From Paramacrobiotus metropolitanus (Eukaryota; Tardigrada; Eutardigrada; Parachela; Macrobiotidae), in the NCBI RefSeq assembly GCF_019649055.1, contig NW_026570285.1, forward strand, positions 124,001 through 188,000: a stretch of DNA of 64,000 nt, given 5' to 3'. Positions within the stretch are counted from its first letter, which is position 1. The number at the start of each line of letters is the position of its first letter. Under the pieces are notes generated by a model. The model was not told the origin of the DNA, ran no database searches, and was given only the letters and a program-made list of their open reading frames with translations. Shown here piece by piece: positions 24,809 to 64,000 of the stretch. The translations under genes were made by a program, and so were the position numbers.

Positions 24809-27800
24809 ATGCACTGCATGTTGTCTTTTCTCTGCCTTCTTGGCCTCGTGTATGATTCGCACTGCATGTTTTGGCGGAAACTCACCCGCGAACAATGGGA
24901 TGCACTCATCAGCCAATCCACAACCGGCACTGGATCCCACCTTAACACCAACCGGCTGCAAAATAACTTCCGTTTTTTCCCGGAAAAGACGGCGCTACGA
25001 GCTACCATCACTAAAGCGTGTGGACTTCCAGGCGGAAACAATCCCGACCCTTTTGGATTATCCGCGCAGTTCACCACAAAAGGCAACAAGATTTCGGATA
25101 TGGAGATACCGGGAAAGGAAGGAGCTCTAGGAGCAATTCGTCGTAGATGGCATTTGGGAGAAACAGCGCCGGCCCCGAGAATTGTCGGAGGAGCGGATAC
25201 CAGCACAGCCGTTGCTTGTTGGCAGGTAACGAACGTGAACACAAAACTATAACGCCAACAAACCGTACACTGAATGCAACGTTATTGCGTGAAAATATGT
25301 ACACGTAATTTCTACCGTATCAGCACGGCGACAACCATTAATTCACGGGTTACGCCAAACTCCATACTACGGCGGCATCGCCACACTAGTTATGCTTTAT
25401 ATGCATTTGGCATGGCTGATGCATGCCAAATATCGGTTCAGATTATACAGTAAATTATCCATATATGAACTATAAAATGTTAACCCTTCTCCTTTATAAT
25501 TACCCTAATACTGAAAAGATCATTTGTCGTTGTGATAGACGTAGTGCAGTGGCGATCGTTACAACTCGTAATGAAACTTTTGCGCTAAATACCGTAATTA
25601 TCGAATTTGAAGCCCCCCCAAAATACAAGCCCCCCCCGTAATTAGAGCCCACCCTAAGGTCGTTTGAAAGTTATAAGCCTTCCCCCCCCCCCGAAACAGA
25701 GGCCCATGGGCTTAATTAAATACCGTAAAGCCCATATTAAAAAATGCCAAAAAGCTGGTTTGAAAAATTGAATCCCCCTCCCTAAATACAAGCCTATGCC
25801 CGTAATTGGAGCCCACCCCGTGGGTCATTTGAAATATTTGTAACCCTGGGCTTCTAATTCGATAATTATGGTACATGCTAAGTGTACCTTTACGGTAAAT
25901 ATTACGGGACAAGCTTTGTGCAGTCGCTTTCGGTACGGTTTTAAGCTGTTTTTCTGATCGTTTTCCTTCTGCCGTATTTCGGCGAAACTGAGCATACAAT
26001 GCCGATAGTATGGGTGCATGATTTCAAAAATGCATTGCAGGCGTTCATTATGCCGAACACAGCAAGCGCAGCTGAAAGTATACGAGGACATTTGGGTGCT
26101 GTGAACATACCCTGCACGATTAGGCTGCGATGAACAGCCGGCTAAATTAATGGCAGTCGATTGCCTCAACCGTGTATGCCATCCTGGGCGGCAAACCAGC
26201 CCGTAATGTTATTGGTCGCATCCACGGATTTTAAACAGATTTTCTCCATAGACTGGTATGCTAACTTCAGATGCGTGTCATTCTTGATTTTGAAAATGAA
26301 ACTGTTCAAGTCATATACCAAACGGCAGAAAATTATTTTCACGATTTTTGACACCAAACAAGTTGCAGTTTATGGCGAAAGACAAGTTATAGCTGTTTGA
26401 AGTTTCTCAGACACAGCATAGAATCGCCGCGTGGGACCCTTGATCGTGAATTGTATGCTAAGTCTACGAGAAAACTAAAATGGCTGTAACTTGTTTCATT
26501 TACCACAAACCACAACTTCTTTGGTCTCAAAATCGTGAAAATTAATTTTCTGTCGTTTGGTATATGACTTGAACAGTTTCACTTTCAAAATCAAGAATGA
26601 CACGCATCTGAAGTTAGCATGTAGTCTATGGAGAAAATCTGTTTTAAAATCCGTGGATGCGACTACTAACATTACGGGCTGGTTTTCAGCCGCCCAGATG
26701 GCATACACGGTTGAGGCAATCGATCATTAATTTAGCCGATTGTTCATCGCAGCCTAATCGTGCAGGGTACACAGCACCCAAATGTCCAGCGTACTATATA
26801 GATGCGGCGGTGTGATCATCGGCAGCCGAACCATCTTAACAGCCGCCCACTGCTTGCTGCATCGGACCACAAGGTAGAAGTGTCGAATTCCCGATATACC
26901 ATTAATCTGGAGAAATACTAAACTATTGCTAATAATTCTCCAGCGTTCCATTGCCGGTGAGTAGCATCCAGGTGGTCGTGGGTGCCGTGAACAGCGGCGC
27001 TCCGGCAACCAACGTCAACGATCCCACCGGTTGCGCCCAGACGTTCACCGCGGAATCACTCATTATACACCCGGCATACAACCACGAACTTAATGACAAC
27101 GACATCGCAATCATTACGCTGACGACGGCCATTAACGTCGATCAGAAACCATGCGCCTGCACACTGTGCTTCAGCGCACGCCAACCGACAGTCGGAGAGC
27201 AGTGCGCGGTGACAGGTGTCACGGTGTCTGCTCGATGTATGAAGCAACCACCCTTGGTGGCTGCTGGTATAGATTTCATGCATTTCCTCTGAAATTGATC
27301 AGTTTATTGCTTCCCTTTTCCCCTATTTTCTGTATTTTCCCCCTTTGGGCAATAAACTCTTCTTTTGTGGGAGACCCGTGGTCTTCCACATCCAGATTTA
27401 TCTGTATTTCGAGGGGGTGTTAGACCTTCCTCGTGACACAGGTTACGGCATAGAAATGGCTCTTTTGAATTTTACTGGTACGGCAAAAATGTCGCGGGCC
27501 AATTTTTGTGCCCCATTAATAACTTTGGGCGTCTTATTGTTGCAGTGCCTCGTCGAAATCCGGTGCCGTTGAAATGGGTTGCCCAAACCATTGTTAATCA
27601 GGGCGCCACGAACAAATGTCCGGCATTTCCAAACAGCGCAGGAGCAATCACCAATCTGACAATGAAGTTTTGTACACACGGTCCAGATGATCAAGGCCCG
27701 TGTCTTGGAGATGACGGTTGGTCTCTGGAGTTTTTTGCATTTTTATAACACCACGCGCAGTAATACCTCAGTAATACAATGATTCTTACTGTTTAAGTTA

Positions 27801-29385
27801 AGTTCAGTCGTTTAACGTCCGCACACAATCTGGGTAAGACCCAATCCGAGGCAGCAGACTCGTCATAATTAAAATACAACACAAAATATCGAACAACGAT
27901 AGGCAGAAAAAATAACACTCGTTCATATTTCCAACAACTGCACATGATCAGTATGATAAAACTTCTTAAGGGACTTCACTGTCTTCCAGTTAACATCATT
28001 TAAAGCCGTTTTAAATTTAGTCAAATTCCCGTAGGCTTCTGCCGGTAGGTATAAATCGTTCCATATCCTTGCCATCCGATAGGCGAAAGATTTATCCGAA
28101 GGTGGAAGTGTCAGACCGCAAAACGTCGTTATTCTAGAAAACTACTCTTTGTTATTCTACAAAACTCGGATGCGAATCTGAAAGTCAGATGCAGTGTTCA
28201 GAAACGCTGTTTATATGTTTAGGAAGTGCGCTAGTCTGCTGGGATCCGGCCAACAACGGCTACTATTTAGCAGGTCTCATTGCCATAGGCCCGGAACTTT
28301 GCGCCATAGGCTTGAGCGACTGGAGCGCCCAAAGCACTAAAGTAGCATTGTATTTGCAATGGATTGCTGACAATTCCGTATCCGGCGACGTCAACCTCCC
28401 CGCGAGCAGCATTGTCTCAACTCCAACCCCCGCCCCTTCCGAAACAACTAACAGCCCAATCACCGCCCCGGGCACGACCGAAGCATGCGGTATTCCCGGC
28501 AGCGGTCCGATTGATGCGTTCGGCATCGTCAGTCAAATGGAGTGTTGAAAGAAGTGATCCATTGAATGACCCGTATTTCGCAATCAAGAATCCTGTGTAA
28601 CTTTCTAAATGGCTCTAGTCAAAATTAATCGGATTTCGCTGCTAGTATAGGGACAAGTTGCTTATGGAACGGACTTGTATATACGCGTTGCTTATTTGCA
28701 GGTATCTTGACCTTGTCGAGCGCTATTGACCTGGCCACCAAACCGTGTGCGTGCGCCATATGTCTGACAAACCGAGTGCCCACCTTCAACGAAACGTGTA
28801 TCATGAGTGGTTACGGGACGGAGACCAACGGAAACCGTAAGTGACCAGTGTAATAATAGCTCCGGCAGTAATGTAATCCCTCGTCCGGTTTCCCTTTTTA
28901 GCCATTCGTAGTGCGGTACCCTTGAAATGGATTACGCAAAAAATCATCCCACAATCGAGCGTTTGCCCTAGATTCTGCTTCGGAAGTTCCTGTACCAATG
29001 TTAGCAACTACCTGTAAGATTTTATCATTTTGGCGGCAATCTATAGCAAACTACCGCTGCGGAGTTCGTAAGCGCTGGTGTCGCTTTCAGATGCAGCCAA
29101 GGTGCGACAGGCCAGGATCAGTGTATCGGTGACACTGGCGGCCCGTTGGCTTGCTACGATCCCACGCGTAACAACTATTATTTGGCCGGCGTTATTGCGT
29201 TCACCACGGAGACCTGCGGAGCCGGTCAAGGCGGACAGAGCGTGGAAGTGGCACTGTATTTGCCATGGATAGTGGCTAATGCCTGGCCGGGTGACGTTCA
29301 AGTAGAGGACAGTTCTGTTACAGTACCGACTGTTCCGTCAGTCGGAACGACCACATACTACAATTATGTATTTCTACAACAATAA
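24809..29385 (+). CDS. Secreted trypsin-fold protease homologue, damaged copy (SPH1)
   Basis: Exons: 24809-25225, about 26766-26873, 26944-27215, 27442-27477, 27546-27716, 28223-28548, 28702-28836, 28902-29013, 29091-29385. Signal peptide MHCMLSFLCLLGLVYDSHC, a propeptide, then RIVGGADTSTAVACWQ (activation-site form). LTAAHC keeps the catalytic His and DNDIAIITL the Asp. The serine site reads GDDG|GSALVC, so Ser195 is replaced by Asp: a non-catalytic homologue. A second trypsin-like domain is only partly present. Compared with SPH2, its first half is deleted after GIVSQMEC, which runs to a stop at 28548. The three last exons remain, with GDTGGPLACYD (Ser to Thr). No AG acceptor near exon 2 restores frame with exon 1, and the C-terminus is shifted. 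Probably a pseudogene or a truncated single-domain form. Confidence 0.75.
25592..25871. mobile_element. TA-flanked MITE with C-runs (280 bp)
   Basis: About 24-bp terminal inverted repeats (CCGTAATTATCGAATTTGAA... at the left, complement of CCATAATTATCGAATTAGAA... at the right) bounded by TA on both sides (25590-25591, 25872-25873). Internal C7-C11 runs and two copies of AAATACAAGCC...CGTAATT.GAGCCCACC. Sits in intron 1 of SPH1. Probably a Tc1/mariner-superfamily derivative. Confidence 0.75.
26086..26787. repeat. Long inverted repeat (about 315-bp arms) at the exon 2 boundary of SPH1
   Basis: Arms 26086-26400 and 26474-26787 are inverted copies with about 73 bp between them; similarity is high by eye. 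Shared blocks include CAGCACCCAAATGTCC, GCACGATTAGGCTGCGATGAACA and CAAGAATGACACGCATCTGA. The right arm extends into what should be the start of SPH1 exon 2. It is either a foldback transposon or an inverted local duplication. Confidence 0.85.
27216..27441 (+). mobile_element. Introner-like element: transposon that forms an intron
   Basis: 226 bp inserted inside a coding exon of SPH1. It begins GTGTCACG and its element part ends CGTGACAC (exact 8-bp inverted repeat, 27216-27223 and 27432-27439). The dinucleotide AG is duplicated at 27214-27215 and 27440-27441. Read as an intron it is GTGTCA...CACAG. Splicing gives GTGACA|GGTTAC, restoring A-V-T-G-Y-G, the exact sequence context of the uninterrupted paralogue at 44354-44366. 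Confidence 0.8.
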
Positions 29386-35366: not shown

Positions 35367-35966
35367 TTGCTGTTCATTTCTCACAACGGCTTTTACCTGT
35401 TGCTAGCTCGAGAATTGTTGCTCGAGAATCGCGCATTCTCCGTCTTCCTGGCCTACCGCGTCACGGTAGCTCCACAAGTAGCAACCGCCCTGGCCAAGTA
35501 TCAGGACCTGATTGCGGCGTATGTCGAGCGGGGGGTTCCGACCGCCCACTGGCTCGAATACGACCGGCAGTTTCGGTCCCTTATGACGAGCCATCCGCGC
35601 GAATATGACATGTGGGCCCGCCAGCACGACGACACTTACGCAGATTACATCCAGAACGCCGCTCCGGAGGAGGGCGCAAGTGACGGCGGCGGCGATCAAC
35701 GGTCCAAGAAGAATGCCGCCCCGACGGATAAATGTCGCAACTGCGGGGAGATGGGGCATTTCATCGCACACTGCCCGCGTCCCCGGAAAGGACAGGCCGG
35801 ATACAACCAGCCCTTTCGACCTGCCCCAGCAGTGGGGGGCGAAGTCTGCCGCAACTGGAACCAGTTCCGGTGTAGCGACCCATGCAGCCAAGGACGCTTG
35901 CACGCTTGCGGAAAGTGCCGCGACAAGGACCACCGGGCACCGCAGTGCAAGTCCGAGTCTCACTGA
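35367..35966 (+). CDS. gag-like protein of the DIRS-like element (5' end unclear)
   Basis: The open frame encodes a region with YQDLIAAYVERGVPTAHWLE and DMWARQHDD. A CCHC zinc knuckle follows (CRNCGEMGHFIAHC), then a second Cys-rich segment (CSDPCSQGR..HACGKC..DHRAPQC). It would bind template RNA and build the particle. No ATG is obvious at the 5' end, so the ORF may begin upstream, be spliced or be truncated. It overlaps the next ORF by about 360 nt in another frame. Confidence 0.65.
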   Translation: MLFISHNGFYLLLARELLLENRAFSVFLAYRVTVAPQVATALAKYQDLIAAYVERGVPTAHWLEYDRQFRSLMTSHPREYDMWARQHDDTYADYIQNAAPEEGASDGGGDQRSKKNAAPTDKCRNCGEMGHFIAHCPRPRKGQAGYNQPFRPAPAVGGEVCRNWNQFRCSDPCSQGRLHACGKCRDKDHRAPQCKSESH

Positions 35967-37647
35967 AAGTATAGCAGTGCCTGCAAACGCTCAGACGCCT
36001 CTGCGTGCTGATGCGTTTGAGAAACTGCTTGCCGATCATCCCGACGCCAGTTTATGTCGCTTTATCACCACAACCATACGGACTGGCGCCGATATCCGGT
36101 ACAGAGGACCTCAGTTTGCACGTCATACAAAGAATTTATTATCCGCACGGATCCACCACGACGCCCTGCAGCGTAGCATACAGATGGAAGTTGCCGCAGG
36201 ACACTCTGTGGGACCGTCTCCAAGACCTCCGCTGCCGTTCTTCGTGGTAAACGCACTCGGATGCCGACCAAAGAAGGACGGAGGCCACCGTACGATCCTG
36301 GACTTGTCGCAACCAGCCGGACTAAGCGTGAACGACCACATAGACGGCCGGGAAATGCCTCTTCAGTACTGCTCTGTCGACGATGCAGTGAAGCTGCTGA
36401 CGATCGCTGGTAAGGGAGCGCCAACGGGCAAGATGGACATCAAGTCCGCGTTCCGACTGATACCTGTCAGGAAAGCAGACTGGAACCTCCTCGGATATCA
36501 GCTCGACGGTAAGTACTACTTTGACGTAGTATTACCGTTTGGCTGCCGCTCAGCCCCTTATATTTTTGAGTTCTTTTCAACGGCGGTGCATTGGTGTGTA
36601 CAAAGACGCGCCCTCCTCAGCTCGCTACTCCACTACGTCGACGACTTTCTGTTCGTTGGCAAACCCGGGAGCGGAGAGTGCGAGTTACTGATGGTCTCCA
36701 TGCAGGAAGTGTGCAGCGAGCTCGGGGTTCCCCTAGCAGTCGACAAGACCGTAGGGCCCGCGACCCGGCTGACATTCCTGGGCATTGAACTTGACTCATA
36801 CGAGCAGACGCTGAGCCTCCCAGCCGGCAAGCTGGCGGAGATCCTGACCACCCTCAAGAGCTGGCGTGACAAGACCACCTGCACACTCCCGGAGCTACAG
36901 AGCCTCATCGGCACCCTGACGTTCGCGTCCAAATGCGTACCTTCCAGCCGGCTTTTCACTCGCAGGATGATACGTTTACTGGCAGAATCCCACGGGCGGC
37001 CTCGTGTGTCCATCAACACGGACTTCCGGCTCGATCTCGACTGGTGGAGGGACTTCCTGCCCCAATGGAACGGAACGGCCTCCTTCCTGCAGCCAGATTG
37101 GACAACTTCCGATGTGCTGCACCTCTACACAGACGCGTCCGCCACGCTGGGCCTGGGAGCCTACCTGAACGGCGAGTGGTTCCAGTCCAGGTGGCCGGAG
37201 TGGCTGTTGCAGGTCTCCCCTTCAATCGAGTACATGGAAATGGTTCCCATCCTGCTCGCCGTTATTGTTTGGGGGCAAAAGTTGCGCCGGAAGAAAGTTA
37301 TCTTCCACACCGACAACGCCGGCGCTGTGGAGGCATGGGCACGCTTGCGCTCCAGCAGCCCGAGTGTGCTCGATCTAATGCGGAGAATGACGTGGGCGGC
37401 GGCCGCTAATAACCTAACGTTGACGCTCAAGCACGTACCGGGCGTTGATAACGGTATCGCTGACGCGCTATCTCGGTTTCAGATGTCTCGGTTCAGAACA
37501 CTCGCGCCGGCAGCACTCAACACGTCTACGCCCCATCCGGACATCTTTCCCAGCCTGCAGGAAATATATCGCGCAGCGGTACCCTGCAGCAGCTCCTCAG
37601 CGCCCACATCTCCGGATCCTCCAGAGCCACGTACAAAGCCCCGATGA
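35605..37647 (+). CDS. Reverse transcriptase-RNase H of the DIRS-like element
   Basis: The first ~120 codons overlap gag and are probably non-functional. RT proper begins near 36000. Motifs: LGCRPKKDGGHRTILDLS, GKMDIKSAFRLIPV (first catalytic Asp), LPFGCRSAPYIFE and LLHYVDDFLFVG (YVDD, about residue 344), then the connection LTFLGIEL. RNase H: LYTDASATLGLGAYL, IEYMEMVPIL, VIFHTDNAGAVEAW and HVPGVDNGIADALSR, with all four carboxylates present. No frame break. It makes DNA from the element RNA. Its TGA overlaps the ATG of the recombinase ORF (ATGA). Confidence 0.85.
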   Translation: MTCGPASTTTLTQITSRTPLRRRAQVTAAAINGPRRMPPRRINVATAGRWGISSHTARVPGKDRPDTTSPFDLPQQWGAKSAATGTSSGVATHAAKDACTLAESAATRTTGHRSASPSLTESIAVPANAQTPLRADAFEKLLADHPDASLCRFITTTIRTGADIRYRGPQFARHTKNLLSARIHHDALQRSIQMEVAAGHSVGPSPRPPLPFFVVNALGCRPKKDGGHRTILDLSQPAGLSVNDHIDGREMPLQYCSVDDAVKLLTIAGKGAPTGKMDIKSAFRLIPVRKADWNLLGYQLDGKYYFDVVLPFGCRSAPYIFEFFSTAVHWCVQRRALLSSLLHYVDDFLFVGKPGSGECELLMVSMQEVCSELGVPLAVDKTVGPATRLTFLGIELDSYEQTLSLPAGKLAEILTTLKSWRDKTTCTLPELQSLIGTLTFASKCVPSSRLFTRRMIRLLAESHGRPRVSINTDFRLDLDWWRDFLPQWNGTASFLQPDWTTSDVLHLYTDASATLGLGAYLNGEWFQSRWPEWLLQVSPSIEYMEMVPILLAVIVWGQKLRRKKVIFHTDNAGAVEAWARLRSSSPSVLDLMRRMTWAAAANNLTLTLKHVPGVDNGIADALSRFQMSRFRTLAPAALNTSTPHPDIFPSLQEIYRAAVPCSSSSAPTSPDPPEPRTKPR

Positions 37648-38552
37648 CCCGCTTCGTACAGTTCTGCGCCGCAAATGGCTTTGCGTCACTGCCAGCCATC
37701 CCGTCTACTGTTGCCGCGTATGTAGCCTCCCTGTACGAGGAGAACGCAGCCTACCGAACCATGAAAGTATACCTCGCAGCGGTACACAACAGTCATCGGG
37801 AAGCCGGTCTGCTTAACCCTACCGCCGACGACTTGGTCGTGCGCGCGGTGAGCGGCTTCAAGAGACTGCGCGGACCGAACCCCGACACGCGGCTGCCCAT
37901 TACGCTTGACACGATGCGCACGCTGAAATCTCGCCTTACGACGCATGACAACGCCGAAGAAGCCACCATGATCTGGTGTGCCTTCTGTGTGGCGTTTTTC
38001 GGATTCCTACGTGTCAGCGAGATCGCTTCGAAGTCTAGCTGCACATTCGACACCGCCTCCACCCTTCTCCTCCGAGACGTGACGATCGCAGGCAACACTG
38101 CTGTCGTCTCCTTGAAACGCACCAAAACCGATCAGAGCGCTACAGGGACAAAGATAACGCTAACCGCCACCAATCGGTCCATCTGTCCAGTACGCGCCAT
38201 TGCGGACTTCCACCGCCTTCGGATCAAGCAGGGCGGCATCACCACTCCCTTCTTCCGTTACCAGAACGGGAAGTTCCTAACACGTGCGACTGTCGACCGG
38301 ATCCTGAAGACCCTGCTGTACGATCACCCGGACCGCGCGCGGATCAGCACACACAGCTTCCGCATCGGGGCGGCAACCGAGGCTGCGTCACAACGGCTAC
38401 CGAAGGAGATGATTCAGCGCGCCGGAAGATGGAAGAGCGACTGCGTTGAGCGTTATATCCGACCTGCTACCCTAACCGGACCGACTTTCTACGCAAAGAG
38501 GGTTTGTTTGGGGGCGAAGAAATCGGGCACAGGCGGAGGGTGCCGGCAGTGA
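37644..38552 (+). CDS. Tyrosine recombinase of the DIRS-like element
   Basis: 302 aa starting at the ATGA overlap. Catalytic residues of the family are visible: Arg in FFGFLRVSEIA, the HxxR box in ISTHSFRIGAATEAAS, the GRWKSD segment and the nucleophile Tyr in CVERYIRP. The N-terminal SAM-like core-binding region is present (TMKVYLAAVHNSHREAG). It would insert the circular element DNA by site-specific strand exchange. The frame is intact from start to stop, suggesting a young insertion. Confidence 0.85.
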   Translation: MTRFVQFCAANGFASLPAIPSTVAAYVASLYEENAAYRTMKVYLAAVHNSHREAGLLNPTADDLVVRAVSGFKRLRGPNPDTRLPITLDTMRTLKSRLTTHDNAEEATMIWCAFCVAFFGFLRVSEIASKSSCTFDTASTLLLRDVTIAGNTAVVSLKRTKTDQSATGTKITLTATNRSICPVRAIADFHRLRIKQGGITTPFFRYQNGKFLTRATVDRILKTLLYDHPDRARISTHSFRIGAATEAASQRLPKEMIQRAGRWKSDCVERYIRPATLTGPTFYAKRVCLGAKKSGTGGGCRQ

Positions 38553-43130: not shown

Positions 43131-43175
43131 ATGAGTGTCGCGGCTGTCCGTTCGCACAATCGCTCTGCAAATACC

Positions 43176-46100
43176 ATGCACTACACGTTGTTCTTTCTCT
43201 GTCTGTTTAGCCTTGCACAGGATTCACATAGTATATTCCGGCGGAAAATCACCCGCGAACAATGGGATGCACTCTTCAGCCAATCCACACTTGGCACGGA
43301 ATCCCGCGTTAGCGTTAACCGGCTGCATAATGATTTCCGCTTCTTCCCGGAGAACAAGGTGCAGCGGACGGTCATCACGAAGCCATGTGGACATCCCGGC
43401 GGAAATAATTCCGATCCCTTTGGATTATCCACGCAGTTCGCCACAAAGGGCAATAAAATTTCCGTTGTCGAGGTATTGGGGACTGGCAGAGCGGCTGGGG
43501 TGATTCGCCGTAGAACGCTGTTAGGAGGAATACCGCCTCCAAGCCCGAGGATTGTCGGTGGAGCGGATACGAGCACATCCGTAGCTTGTTGGCAGGTAAC
43601 GAACGACAGAAAAGACTACGGTACGGTAGCGTTGTCATATCGTACACTGAAACAGCCGCTTCTTTGCGACATGTATAATAGGCACCGATGCAGGCCGGCA
43701 CCTATATCGTAGGTATGTGCTTATATATTTTAAGGGCGGTAACAATCGGACGATATTCGACATCTGAAAAATTTTGTAGTCCGGAATTTTCGTTTTACAG
43801 AAACACGTTAGCTTTTCTATCGTTTTTCATAAACTCGTAATTTTATGCCAATACCAAGTAAGCCAAAGTCTGTATATATTAAAAAAACTGTGTTGTAGGC
43901 TTTCATTGTGTCGAACACAACAACCGGTGTGCGACAGACATGCGGTGGTGTAATTATTGGTAGCCAGACCATCTTAACAGGCGCCCACTGTTTGCTGGAC
44001 CAAACTACAAGGTAAAAACCCGATATTTCCTACATATGTCATACGAATCAATAGGCAACAGGTGTCGCAAATGTTAAATCTTTTCAGAATTCCGTTGCCG
44101 GTAAGTAATATCCAGGTGGTCGTGGGTGCCGTGGACAGCGGCGCCCCGGCAACCAACGTCAACGATCCCACCGGTTGCGCCCAGACGTTCACTGCGGAAT
44201 CAGCCAGAATGCACCCGCAGTATAACGACGCGGTTAACGACAACGACGTCGGCATTATCACGCTGAGCACCGCCATTAACGTCGACCAGAAGCCGTGTAC
44301 CTGCACCTTGTGCTTCAGCACACGCCAGCCGGCAACCGGAGAGACATGCGCGGTGACCGGTTACGGTTTTGAGACGTTTGATTTTACTAGTACGTACGTT
44401 AGACGTGTTGCAGGTAGCTTGTGCGTTTCCTTTGCCGGGCCCTAAAATCAATGATATTTTGCGATTATATCTACACAATTGTTGCAGCGCCTCGAAATCC
44501 GATTCCGTTGAAATGGGTGGCCCAGACAGTTGTAAATCAGAGCGACACGAACATCTGTCCGGTATTCGTTAACAGCGCCGGAACAACCACCAACGTGACA
44601 CAAAACATTTGTACCAAGAGTCCAGTTGGTCAAGATCCCTGCCTTGGAGACGACGGTTCGTCGGCAAAATACAGTATTTCTAGGTTTGATGATAACACTT
44701 TTACGGGTATTAAGCCATTTGCCTGTTTGCTGAATATTAAGGCAGTTCTGAGTGCGGCCGGAAACTGAAGGCTTCATGACATAACCAATACTAATATTGT
44801 TTATGTTTACAGGAGGTGCTCTCGTCTGCTGGGATCCGACCAACAGTGTCCACTATTTAGCGGGACTCATTGCTTTTGGTTCGGAGACCTGCGCGCAAGG
44901 CTTCGGTGACCAGAACGTCAAAATAGCACTGTATCTGCAATGGATCGCTGACAATTCTCTATCCGGTGATGTCAATCTATCCCCGGGTACCACTGTCACC
45001 ACCGTCCCTCCGATAACAACCACCACCCCCGCCACCGTCCCGGTCACAGTTCCCACGGGCACGACGGAAGCCTGCGGTATTCCCGGCAATGGCCAGATTG
45101 ACCCATTCGGTATCGTCAGTTTACCTCGCATGTCCTTGGCTCCGTTCGATGAATTAAACCGGTTCCGCTCCGTCCGCCGTCGGCAGGGCCGTGATGTCGA
45201 AGCTGTCCTGGAGCCCCGCATTATCGGGGGAACAGACAGCACAGCCTCGGTGGTGTGTTGGCAGGCGTTTGTTGTAGTCGATCAGGGCAACGGACAGGAG
45301 ATCACTTGCGGAGGGGTCATCGTCGGATCGCGCACCATCCTCACGTCCGGCACGTGCATGGTGACCTCCAGCGGCGTGCCCATCTCCACTGCGTCGGCGT
45401 ACACGGTGACCGTGGGAGCAGTCGACAATAACGCTCCGGCTTCGAATGCGCAGGACACTACCGGGTGTGCGCAGACGTTTACTGTGCAAAGCGTTACGCT
45501 GCACCCGGGATATGTCTTCGCCACGGATGATAATGATATCGGTAAGCACGATTTCGGTCTTGGTATGCATTTTATGTAGGAGAGTATACCTCTTTTGCCA
45601 TGTAAGACTGTTTAAGGCGCCATTCATTTACTCCGGGTTCATATAAACGTACGCTTCTGGAAAGTTAAGCATTATAGCGAAAGGCAACGCATTTAGCGTA
45701 AAGCCGGTTTATCGTTGGGCTCCATTCCTCGTCTGCTTTGACGTTGAAATTTTGGTCGCCCGGTTATCGGTCTGACGGCAGAGAACGATGTGCTTAAGTC
45801 CTGCATTACAACTTCTAAAAATTTTCTGAATATGTTGTTGCCTATTGCCTACCTATGCAATTTTCTTTGCTTGAAGGTATCCTTACGCTATCAAGCGCCA
45901 TTGACCTTGCAAACAAACCGTGCGCGTGCGCCATATGCTTGACAAACCGCGTTCCGACCATCAGCGAGACATGTGTCATGAGTGGCTACGGAGTCGAAAC
46001 CAATGGAAACCGTAAGCGATCATTAGATCGATTCTGCTGTAATGAAATCCAGGCAGGATCACCGGTTATTTGTTTGCAGCCATCCGTAACGCAATACCCT

Positions 46101-46636
46101 TGAAATGGGTCACACAAAAAATCGTCCCACAATCAAGCAGCTGCTCCGTGTTCTGCGCGGGAAGCACGTGTACCAATGTCAGCAATTACCTGTAAGATTT
46201 TGGCGACAGTATCTGATAACTGTTTTACTATTGTTATTAGTATCGTATCGGTTGATTATCGGTGTTGTTGCGTTGCAGTTGCAGCCAAGGGGCGACCGGC
46301 CAGGATCAGTGTATCGGTGACAATGGCGGACCGTTGGCTTGCTACGACCCCACGCGTAACAACTACTATTTAGCCGGCGTTATTGCGTTCACCACGGAGA
46401 CCTGCGGAACCGGTCAGGGCGGACAGAGCGCGGAAGTAGCACTGTATTTGCCGTGGATCGTGGCCAATGCGCTGCCGGGCGATGTGCAAGTGGAAAGCGG
46501 TTCGGTAACCGTCCCGACCATCCCAACAATTCCAACTGTGCCAACAATTCCAACGGTCCCAACTGTGCCCACATTGCCGACTCTCCCACCAGTGGGAACG
46601 ACAACATACAACTATTTCTACAATAATATGGGCTAA
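43176..46636 (+). CDS. Secreted double trypsin-domain protease homologue (SPH2), intact
   Basis: Eight exons, all GT-AG and in frame: 43176-43595, 43899-44011, 44088-44389, 44488-44655, 44813-45541, 45877-46011, 46080-46191, 46279-46636 (2337 nt, 778 aa). Signal peptide MHYTLFFLCLFSLAQDSHS, then a propeptide. Domain 1 starts RIVGGADTSTSVACWQ, with LTGAHC (His57 kept), DNDVGIITL (Asp102 kept) and CLGDDGGALVC (Ser195 to Asp). After a Thr/Pro linker and RRRQGRD, domain 2 starts RIIGGTDSTASVVCWQ. It has LTSGTC (His57 to Thr), DDNDIGILTL (Asp kept) and CIGDNGGPLACYD (Ser195 to Asn). The C-terminal tail is a PTIPTVPTLP-type repeat. Both domains should be inactive as serine proteases, so a binding, cofactor or decoy role is likely. 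A poly(A) signal follows at 46787. Confidence 0.88.
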
Positions 46637-46786
46637 CGAAAGGAGAGAAAAAATATGTTGTATCTAAAAGGACTACTCGGGCAGTGTGCCTAAACCTACC
46701 GATATGTTACTATTTCTGTAAGCTATTTTAAATGATAATTTGTATTTTTTTGATAGAATTGCCTATCTTGTTGTCTCAGATCAAAA

Positions 46787-61342: not shown

Positions 61343-64000
61343 TCACAAATATAGACAACATACAGTTTTACAGTAAACAGTAATGATCAACATGAAGTTG
61401 AAGGAAACGCTAGTCCATTTCAAATCCGCCCATTTAACCGTATCCAGGCAAGAATCAAAACTGTTAATGCGGTTGTATGATTCATGGGGCAGTCTGATCT
61501 CATTCCACAAGTGCGCCATTAGATAGGCAAGCTCCGTTCGCTGATGAACTTCCGTCCGTCCGAGGCGCACGTGTCCACGGGTTCCACTGCGTAGGGATGT
61601 TCATCAAGGACGTTATCTGACGTGTTCTGCCTGCAATACAAACGGCGGCAGCACCAAGTTTTTCCCGAAGTTTGAAAAATTTCTCCTCATAAGGTACAAG
61701 ACGGAACACCATCTTGTACATCAGAGCAGAGATTTTCGGATACGACAAAATAACAGGGACTTGTAACCCGCTTTTTTAACGTTTCGGCATACTCAAACTT
61801 GCAAGGTCCGAATCTGATACTTTTAAAAAATCGGTACTGGCAGTCTTCTAACTGATCAATCAGTAGCTTATGTTGGCAGAAAGCTACGGAACTGCCATAA
61901 TCGGCTATCGGTTTAACAAGGGAATCGTACAACTTCGTCCGAGCTGCACTGTTTTGATATGGAAACAGTGCGTTTAGGTAACGAATGCGTTTTTTTCATG
62001 CGGGTAGCTAGACTTTCGCTGTTACGTTTCCAGTTTAGATGTCGGTCTAGGTAGATACCTAGATACTTTGCATTGTCCAATACGGGGATATTTTCACTGT
62101 TTAACGTGTACACACTATCTGGCACTTTTATACGCTTTCTGGTGAATCTTACATGAGCGCTTTTCTTTGCATTGAAGTTTAGCTGGTGTTCAGCCGCATA
62201 TCTAGAAACAATGTCTAAAGCTGATTGAAACACCTGCTCGTCTTGAGGAGACTCAACTTTTTTTAGAAGGCATACATCATCAGCGAAAACAAATAATTCA
62301 CAGTCTTCTGGTAGATCCGGAATATCGTTCATGACACACAGATACATCTGAGGGCCTACCATCGACCCTTGTGGAACGCCGCTTGTTACTTCTCGAAGAG
62401 AAGACAGTTTACCGTTTACATTCACTGCCTGAAAACGACCTTGCAAATAGTCACTCAAAAGTTCCACGAGAGCTTCGTTTAAGTTCAGTTCACGAAGTTT
62501 GGTTATCACGGTGGAGTGGTCAACACGATCAAAAGCTTTACTGCAGTCTAGAAAACACAGTCAACATCTATACCACAGTCAATAAAGTTCATGACCTTTG
62601 CACAAGGATTTGATTTAGCAGTTCGGGTGAATGTTTTTACGATAACCAAATTGGAAGCTGCGAATAAGATTGTTAGATGTTAGATGATTCGTTAATCTAC
62701 CGTTAATTATTCGCTCGAAAACTTTAGATAACGGATGAAGACAGCTAACTGGCCTCCAGTTTTGGGTATCGTGAGATCACAGGACTGTTTTGGTACGGGG
62801 GTAACATAAGAAATTTTCCAACTGTTCGGAAATCGTCGTTCAGATATGCAACAATTGAACAAAATTTTAAGGGGAACAATTATTGCCGAACCACAGGTTC
62901 TAATGAGATGATTTGTCACAGTAAACGGTCCGCTACTTTTCGAAAGATCGACTGCTTTTAACGCTTCCCAGATGTCACATTCATTGACGAAATTTTCATT
63001 TGGTCCAGATTTCTTGCCCAACGCTGATGACAGACGGCAGTGTGACGGACACGGTAAAAGAGAGTCAAAATAGTGTGCGTTCAAAACTTCCGCTTTCTCT
63101 TCGTCGGTTATAGCAACTTTACCATCATGGTGCAGAATTGGCATGCCCTGTTTATCGACGCTTTTTCGTACATAAGACCAAAACTTTTTCGGGTCACTTC
63201 TGGAGGCTGTAGCAACATCCTGTAGTTGTCGATTCATAAACTTTCTCGTCATTAAATCACACTTCTTAGCATAGCTTTTCCAAGCTATTTTCAGTTTTTC
63301 CTTTCGCTCACCGACACCCGCCCTAACGTAACGCCTGTGTGCAGTATCTCTCGTTCTGATAGCTCGCTTTAGCGCAACAGGAAACGATATCGCGAATCGC
63401 TTCGGCTTTAGTTTTATTCTTTCAAAAAATGCCATAGCTTTGGTGACAATAACTTCCTCGATTTTGTCAGCCATTTCTGAAGAATTCATATTTTTTAATT
63501 CAATATTCCAGTTAGTTTGAAAAAGGTCATTTCGATAATTTGGGATATTTTCGGGCAGAAATTTCCACACAACTTTTTCTGGCTGCTTAAAAATGGATTT
63601 TGGAAGCAGAGCAACTATGGAGACGGCATGATGGTCATTTGTACTTGATGGCGGGCTTACCACATTTACAGCCTCAATATACCAGTTTGTTGGTACAATC
63701 GCTAAATCAAGAATGTTGCTATTTCTGGTAGGAATCGTAACAATCTGCTTGAAGTTACACTCTTTTAAAAGTTTCAGCAGACACTGACCGTGGAAAGTAG
63801 TTGACGTCAATTGCTGCCAATTAATTTTCGGGCAGTTAAAATCCCCGAGTAAGACAAACCGGCTTACATCGTTTTCGCAAAATTTTTCACTAATATGCTC
63901 CACAAACCGTGGTAACACTTCAGCAATCATATCAGGTGACCCATAAAATACGCCAACAATAATGTTGAATGTACTTATCTCAACCGCTACGAACTCAAAA
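61343..64000 (-). mobile_element. Non-LTR (LINE, jockey/CR1-like) retrotransposon, 5' end beyond window
   Basis: Minus-strand ORF2 remains. Frame 63930-62707: endonuclease end (RFVLLGDFNCPKINW, then NDHHAVS with the catalytic His) and the start of RT (SWKISYVTPVPK). Frame 62509-61913: RT core (TSGVPQGSMVGPQMYL, then ELFVFADDVCLL, i.e. FADD, then AKYLGIYLDRHLNW). Frame 61932-61687: YDSLVKPIADYGSSVAF. The frames are broken near 62700, 62530 and 61920, so this copy is dead. It normally encodes target-primed reverse transcription. The 3' end and tail are not resolved. Confidence 0.85.

Follow-up and report, generated by a model that had tools for sequence, protein, structure and literature searches.

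The window analyzed here, a stretch of 64,000 nucleotides of Paramacrobiotus metropolitanus (NW_026570285.1), contains two paralogous serine-protease-like genes, termed gene A (blocks 24809-29328) and gene B (about 43131-46640), with exon 3 of gene B matching the Pfam domain Trypsin. All gene A features described in the following lie on the forward strand. Its exon 1 block (24809-25225), which extends to RIVGGADTSTAVACWQ, is open and corresponds by homology to exon 1 of gene B; it is followed by the exon 2 block (26803-26871), which has a tentative acceptor. Exon 3, whose paralogous exon matches Pfam Trypsin, is split into a longer part (26945-27215) and a short remainder encoding YGIEMALLNFT (27442-27476). 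Further downstream lie the blocks of exon 4 (27548-27715), exon 5 (28225-28530) and exons 7, 8, and 9 (28704-28838, 28901-29014, and 29092-29328), each of the last three being open. Each of the nine blocks is open, 1749 coding bases in all; since the blocks were chosen as open stretches, this statement covers only the blocks themselves. Between exons 1 and 2, a segment of approximately 700 bp (26086-26787) matches its own reverse complement at 85% and thus constitutes a large palindrome. Elsewhere in the window, frames recognized by eye resemble a DIRS-type element (35367-38552, reverse transcriptase-like followed by tyrosine-recombinase-like) and, on the minus strand, a non-LTR retrotransposon with endonuclease and reverse transcriptase (61913-63930).

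The alignment of gene A to gene B halts at 28533/45120 and restarts at 28696/45871, and most of the paralogue's exon 6 is therefore absent from gene A (site 28531-28703). In the paralogues, this exon encodes the first half of a second protease-like domain; it is open in gene B and in paralogue E; paralogue D also has it, with a single in-frame stop. In gene A, the frame of exon 5 ends in a stop at 28546, which is bypassed if a weak donor immediately upstream (CA/GTCAAA; here and below, a slash within a motif marks a splice position) joins the exon to exon 7. As exon 6 is mostly missing and this stop is present, decay of gene A is possible regardless of the interruption in exon 3, and the gene may be decaying. 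Between genes A and B, dS was 0.71 and dN 0.155, with a dN/dS of 0.22 (576 codons). When paralogue D was included as third gene, the branch leading to gene A showed a dN of 0.084, a dS of 0.30 and a ratio of 0.28 over the shared blocks (D being without blocks 0 and 3). A third SPH copy (paralogue C; L042, C65:114500-120000) shares 95% identity with gene B in exon 3, but its exon 1 is split over two frames, implying that the SPH cluster holds decaying copies. Paralogue D (L043, C74:374000-380500), with the in-frame stop in exon 6, represents a fourth copy and is likewise a decaying one.

The sequence that interrupts exon 3 of gene A is a block of 226 bp (27216-27441), and direct reading confirmed that its first letters are GT and its last letters AG. 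A first-pass annotation had described it as a perfectly spliceable new intron created by a TIR transposon, with exact inverted ends of 8 bp and a 2-bp duplication of AG. According to our analysis, the borders have to be drawn differently. The repeat itself comprises 222 bp (27217-27438, forward strand) and its inverted ends are 7 bp long (TGTCACG and CGTGACA), the eighth base on each side belonging to a duplicated CAGG; correspondingly, the target site duplication amounts to 4 bp (27213-27216 and 27439-27442). The last G of the left copy opens the putative donor GT, and the AG of the right copy closes the putative intron (CAG/GTGTCA...GACACAG/G), which thus consists of the repeat plus one duplicate. 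When the block was removed in silico, the coding sequence read ...QCAVTGYGIEMALLNFT. The reported restoration of the reading frame is thus correct, but it is no evidence for splicing, as removing any insert together with one duplicate automatically restores the target. In unspliced read-through of gene A, translation would meet an in-frame stop at 27290, followed by a polyadenylation-like signal, AATAAA, in sense with the gene (27351-27356). In gene B, the paralogous exon 3 (44089-44384, forward strand) represents the empty site, and the earlier observation of a continuous exon around 44354-44366 was confirmed. A search with the 100-residue exon of gene B supports this picture: of the seven best matches, six extend at least to residue 94 with no stop on the way, whereas the window copy, ranking fourth, breaks off at residue 92, at the start of the repeat. 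The same intron is therefore not shared by these paralogues, and the proposal of a mobile element inserted into one paralogue, with the duplicated target giving the letters of the splice sites, is supported.

A family of small LTR retrotransposons

A genome search with the 222-bp repeat, as had been suggested along with the first description of the block, yielded at least 40 matches, the best other copy among the matches listed being 92% identical. Six of these 40 places are the ends of three two-LTR elements, 26 are two-ended solo copies and eight are truncated. The two-LTR elements, located at C1, C51, and C56, carry direct repeats; their LTR pairs are 100, 99.1, and 99.6% identical, the enclosed region amounts to about 1.4-1.5 kb and the outer 4-bp flanks match each other (GTAT, CCTG, and ATAT, respectively). 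In all three, the 5′ LTR is directly followed by AA-TGGCGCTCCTGG, which places the primer site TGGCGCTCCTGG two bases past the LTR, and directly before the 3′ LTR lies a stretch rich in purines that ends with GGGGCATG or GGGCATG. A pattern for a tRNA 3′ end pairing with the primer site was found at six identical places in the genome; a tRNA scan at three of them identified a tRNA-Asn gene at two and none at the third. This shorter pattern was used instead of a full-length tRNA pattern, which gave a single match to a hairpin-like repeat, the reversed control also giving one.

Of the 26 two-ended solo copies, 17 are flanked by a 4-bp duplication with all four bases identical, four by one with three and one by one with two identical bases; the remaining four could not be read by the duplication script and gave no exact match in a fixed-length reading. 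The family thus combines TG...CA ends and a constant 4-bp duplication (17 of 26 two-ended solos and all three pairs) with direct terminal repeats around an internal region, a primer site for a host tRNA and a polypurine tract, all of which are features of LTR retrotransposons. A duplication of 4 bp would fit the Ty3/Gypsy-like superfamily. An open frame of 340 residues inside the copy L008 gave no Pfam match up to E = 1. A sister subfamily with 41 genome matches shows the same primer site, purine tract and layout as the window subfamily, and several of its loci form pairs or tandem chains. At L073 (C93:71500-77500) and L074 (C95:55500-61500), small LTR elements are likewise arranged in chains in which adjoining units share one LTR.

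All these observations speak against the idea of a TIR DNA transposon, for which relatives with inverted repeats, but without direct repeats, primer site and purine tract would be expected. Instead, the relatives are pairs of direct repeats, with matching flanks outside each pair, and they contain a purine tract and a primer site for tRNA-Asn. Judged by its sequence and that of the three two-LTR relatives, which set its orientation and borders, the repeat in the window is a solo LTR of a small LTR retrotransposon, inserted in sense to gene A. Similarly, the assignment as an introner does not hold, since an introner family would be expected to occur as introns in numerous copies, with splice sites at the ends: among the 20 exact duplications of the subfamily (17 solo LTRs and three pairs), the intron-making form occurs once, namely in the window copy. 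That the block is nevertheless a TIR transposon of an introner family, as its short inverted ends, target duplication and GT...AG borders might suggest, is very improbable in view of these pairs and of the sister subfamily that is laid out alike.

Target duplications at intron-making sites

An element with TG...CA ends and a 4-bp duplication generates an exact GT...AG unit whenever the target is NAGG, AGGT or GGTN. In the window, the arrangement CAG/G-TG...CA-CAG/G provides both donor and acceptor because the LTR starts with TG and ends with CA and the target is CAGG. In sampled exons of genes A and B, 104 of 4051 4-mers (2.57%) allow such a unit. Among the 28 exact duplications of both subfamilies, a list that is without the four unread subfamily solos and the non-matching or unreadable sister loci, two fall into the intron-making class, both being CAGG. 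The chance of finding two or more among 28 is P = 0.16 at a frequency of 2.57% and P = 0.26 at 9/256. Since the class does not exceed chance, the intron-making geometry is not a property of the family; and as the block was picked for its geometry, the rarity of this geometry cannot be used as independent evidence. A preference of the element for CAGG was also considered and set aside for the same two of 28 cases. With respect to the sister subfamily, two of the seven loci labelled as solo had no matching duplication (zero and one of four bases, respectively), and the six two-LTR loci comprised three with exact outer matches, two with none and one that was unreadable. An imperfect duplication (CAGG and CTGG) is present at L099, and TA occupies the center of the duplication in 15 of the 28 exact cases. 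Among the 25 remaining two-ended solos of the window subfamily, 13 were scanned with their longest frames across the junction, and these gave no Pfam match above the cut-off.

The second CAGG duplication belongs to a solo LTR of the sister subfamily (C17:377793-377998; L091, C17:376300-379500), which is flanked by CAGG on both sides and by a BTB gene (Pfam BTB, E 2.4e-19). This gene was singled out through its CAGG, other LTR copies having been inspected less closely. By eye, the exon that ends in DVKMFPAHK is followed by a short intron, which closes with TTGCAG/G, and then by FALSISSDVFYTMFHG. Exon matches of several BTB paralogues start at the same residue 27 (e.g., C76:373551, C76:418644, C76:425403, and C68:371415), while the best match, C72:602471, crosses the site without an intron. 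As the paralogous exons start at this residue, the acceptor most likely predated the LTR, which would then most likely have landed on an existing CAG/G acceptor and duplicated CAG/G downstream. A segment copy of this insertion, in which the right part has been replaced, is found at C76:400200 (L109). Further down, the C17 gene shows an apparent one-base frame change (by eye). A query with the BTB domain gave at least 172 genome matches (150 of 877 candidates scored), many of them clustered (C76, C94, C133, C182, and C103), pointing to a large expansion of BTB genes. Taken together, the CAGG pair of SPH and BTB is suggestive of survivorship, without being proof of it.

Splice-site strength and rival explanations

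In order to judge the putative splice sites, a model was built from 28 introns of this genome, all belonging to eight CCT chaperonin genes and thus to one gene family. Of 32 examined gaps between exon matches, 31 contained a candidate intron, 28 a single one (those used), and one contained none; gaps at non-adjacent profile positions were left out, and a few of the introns used are one residue off the profile length. With a score of -0.1, the donor of the LTR (CAG/GTGTCA) lies below all 28 CCT donors (leave-one-out minimum 1.8) and below all 26 SPH donors, and 49% of all GT in the window (n = 3961) score equal or better. Its acceptor, with a score of 2.3, is below 26 of the 28 CCT acceptors, with 21% of 3430 AG scoring equal or better. 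According to the same model, stronger donors are found nearby at 26957, 27237, 27202, and 27267, and three AG within the LTR (27373, 27413, and 27272) outscore its acceptor. A second model from SPH introns, whose 26 donors and 25 acceptors were picked by eye, gave a similar impression: one of the donors and none of the acceptors score below the LTR sites, while 54% of GT and 52% of AG score equal or better. The length of 226 bp is within the range of the 28 CCT introns (58-490 bp). The designation "perfectly spliceable" is therefore apt for the exact geometry but not for the strength of the sites, which are weak compared to introns of the same genome. Use of the LTR as an intron appears possible.

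As for the age of the insertion, a tree with poor support gives the window LTR an end branch of 0.078 changes per site; this value bounds the age only from above, since change in the source element may be included. In a neutral simulation of 1749 coding bases, assuming 0.10 indels per change, the probability of observing no stop and no frameshift was 0.18 at 0.01, 0.035 at 0.02, and 0.0005 at 0.05 changes per site. Therefore, gene A cannot have been dead for long: unless the insert is young, some function must have been retained. The intact exons were also considered as proof of gene A function, a reading that was dropped because the age of the insertion is bounded from above only.

We consider it probable that the locus arose as follows. 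A small LTR retrotransposon would have inserted into exon 3 of one copy of the duplicated serine-protease-like gene, duplicating the 4-bp target CAGG, and recombination between its LTRs would later have deleted the middle and one LTR, a step suggested by the structure of the family. The donor GT is composed of the last target base and the first base of the LTR, and the acceptor AG lies inside the second target copy, so that excision of this exact but weak candidate intron would take precisely the LTR and one duplicate and leave the coding sequence unchanged. Because donor and acceptor are weak and the LTR carries AATAAA, splicing would probably be partial and leaky at most, with many transcripts ending or stopping within the LTR. 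Whether such leaky splicing keeps some function or the gene is plainly disrupted appears about equally likely.

Plain disruption, in which the LTR truncates transcript or protein, gene A is a young pseudogene and the GT...AG borders are coincidental, has close to an even chance. It is favored by the weak splice sites, by the in-frame stop at 27290 and the AATAAA in sense, by the loss of most of exon 6 with the frame stop at 28546, and by the fact that the intron-making class is no commoner than chance. A likely solo LTR in exon 1 of the Brassica gene Crr1a was, in the relevant passages of the report, accompanied by a truncated product and downstream transcript starts (PMC3559844). What disruption explains less well are the nine open blocks, given the low neutral probabilities at 0.02 and 0.05 changes per site and an LTR branch of 0.078. 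These open blocks, together with the exact geometry and frame, a dN/dS of about 0.2 and a length within the range of the CCT introns, would be accounted for by a completed intron gain, with the LTR being efficiently spliced as an exact 226-bp intron and gene A being fully functional. We regard this as rather unlikely, however, since the donor ranks below every CCT and SPH donor and is matched or exceeded by about half of the GT in the window, since stronger donors lie nearby and three internal AG outscore the LTR acceptor, and since most of exon 6 is absent. The least probable explanation is an ancestral intron that was lost from the other paralogues: nothing was found in its favor, the inserted repeat is dispersed in the genome and has a duplication of its own, and the six other best paralogous matches cross the site unbroken.

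Relation to known systems and implications

TRIMs are typically smaller than the internal part of the window family, which measures about 1.4-1.5 kb and in L008 includes the 340-residue open frame mentioned above. In other respects, the family resembles the animal TRIMs described in parts of two reports, which are also small, non-autonomous LTR retrotransposons (PMC3532108; PMC6934838). The SMART elements of grasses are similar as well in being very small LTR elements that occur as solo LTRs, are often genic and are sometimes associated with altered gene structure; they differ by their 5-bp duplications, by having no predicted protein and by genic copies residing mainly in introns, as far as the pertinent sections state (PMC3281118). 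Crr1a resembles the window locus in that a probable solo LTR, together with its target duplication, lies within a coding exon; the product there is truncated, however, and the passages concerned describe no exact intron (PMC3559844).

How a transposon that inserts into the proto-splice site AGGT can give rise to an intron by duplicating the splice sites has been outlined before (PMC3443670, relevant passages). The case presented here is alike insofar as donor and acceptor derive from the target duplication and the coding sequence is preserved when the insert is removed exactly. In the model set out in those passages, AGGT lies wholly within the duplicate, whereas in the window the last base of the target and the TG of the LTR together make up the donor, and splicing is putative. 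Families of introners, mainly derived from DNA transposons, also share splice sites with 4-bp duplications, the sites being common to element and short duplication and coding length remaining unchanged (PMC9860276, in part). In contrast to introners, which according to the same passages are present in many genic copies as introns, the window subfamily with its at least 40 matches has one such copy. In the literature on introns from LTRs or introners, as far as accessible in part and with subscription journals mostly outside the scope, no solo LTR acting as an exact intron was found to be described, which is not proof that none exists. The literature on tardigrades and intron gain yielded nothing of use.

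If the block in gene A is spliced, the mechanism by which an LTR retrotransposon gave rise to an intron could be read directly from the locus, a paralogue having preserved the empty site. If it is not, the lesson would be that frame restoration is automatic and that GT...AG borders need to be checked against splice-site strength and transcripts. Beyond this single locus, it is conceivable, though unlikely, that LTRs with TG...CA ends and 4-bp duplications act as ready-made intron makers at NAGG, AGGT or GGTN targets, and that genic copies such as the two CAGG cases (the exonic copy in SPH becoming an intron, that in BTB recreating an acceptor) have been retained for this reason. The rule of three 4-mer classes is testable in any annotated genome. 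If such retention has occurred, ordinary LTR retrotransposons would, by survivorship and not by carried splice sites, be a slow source of introns and moved acceptors in an animal.
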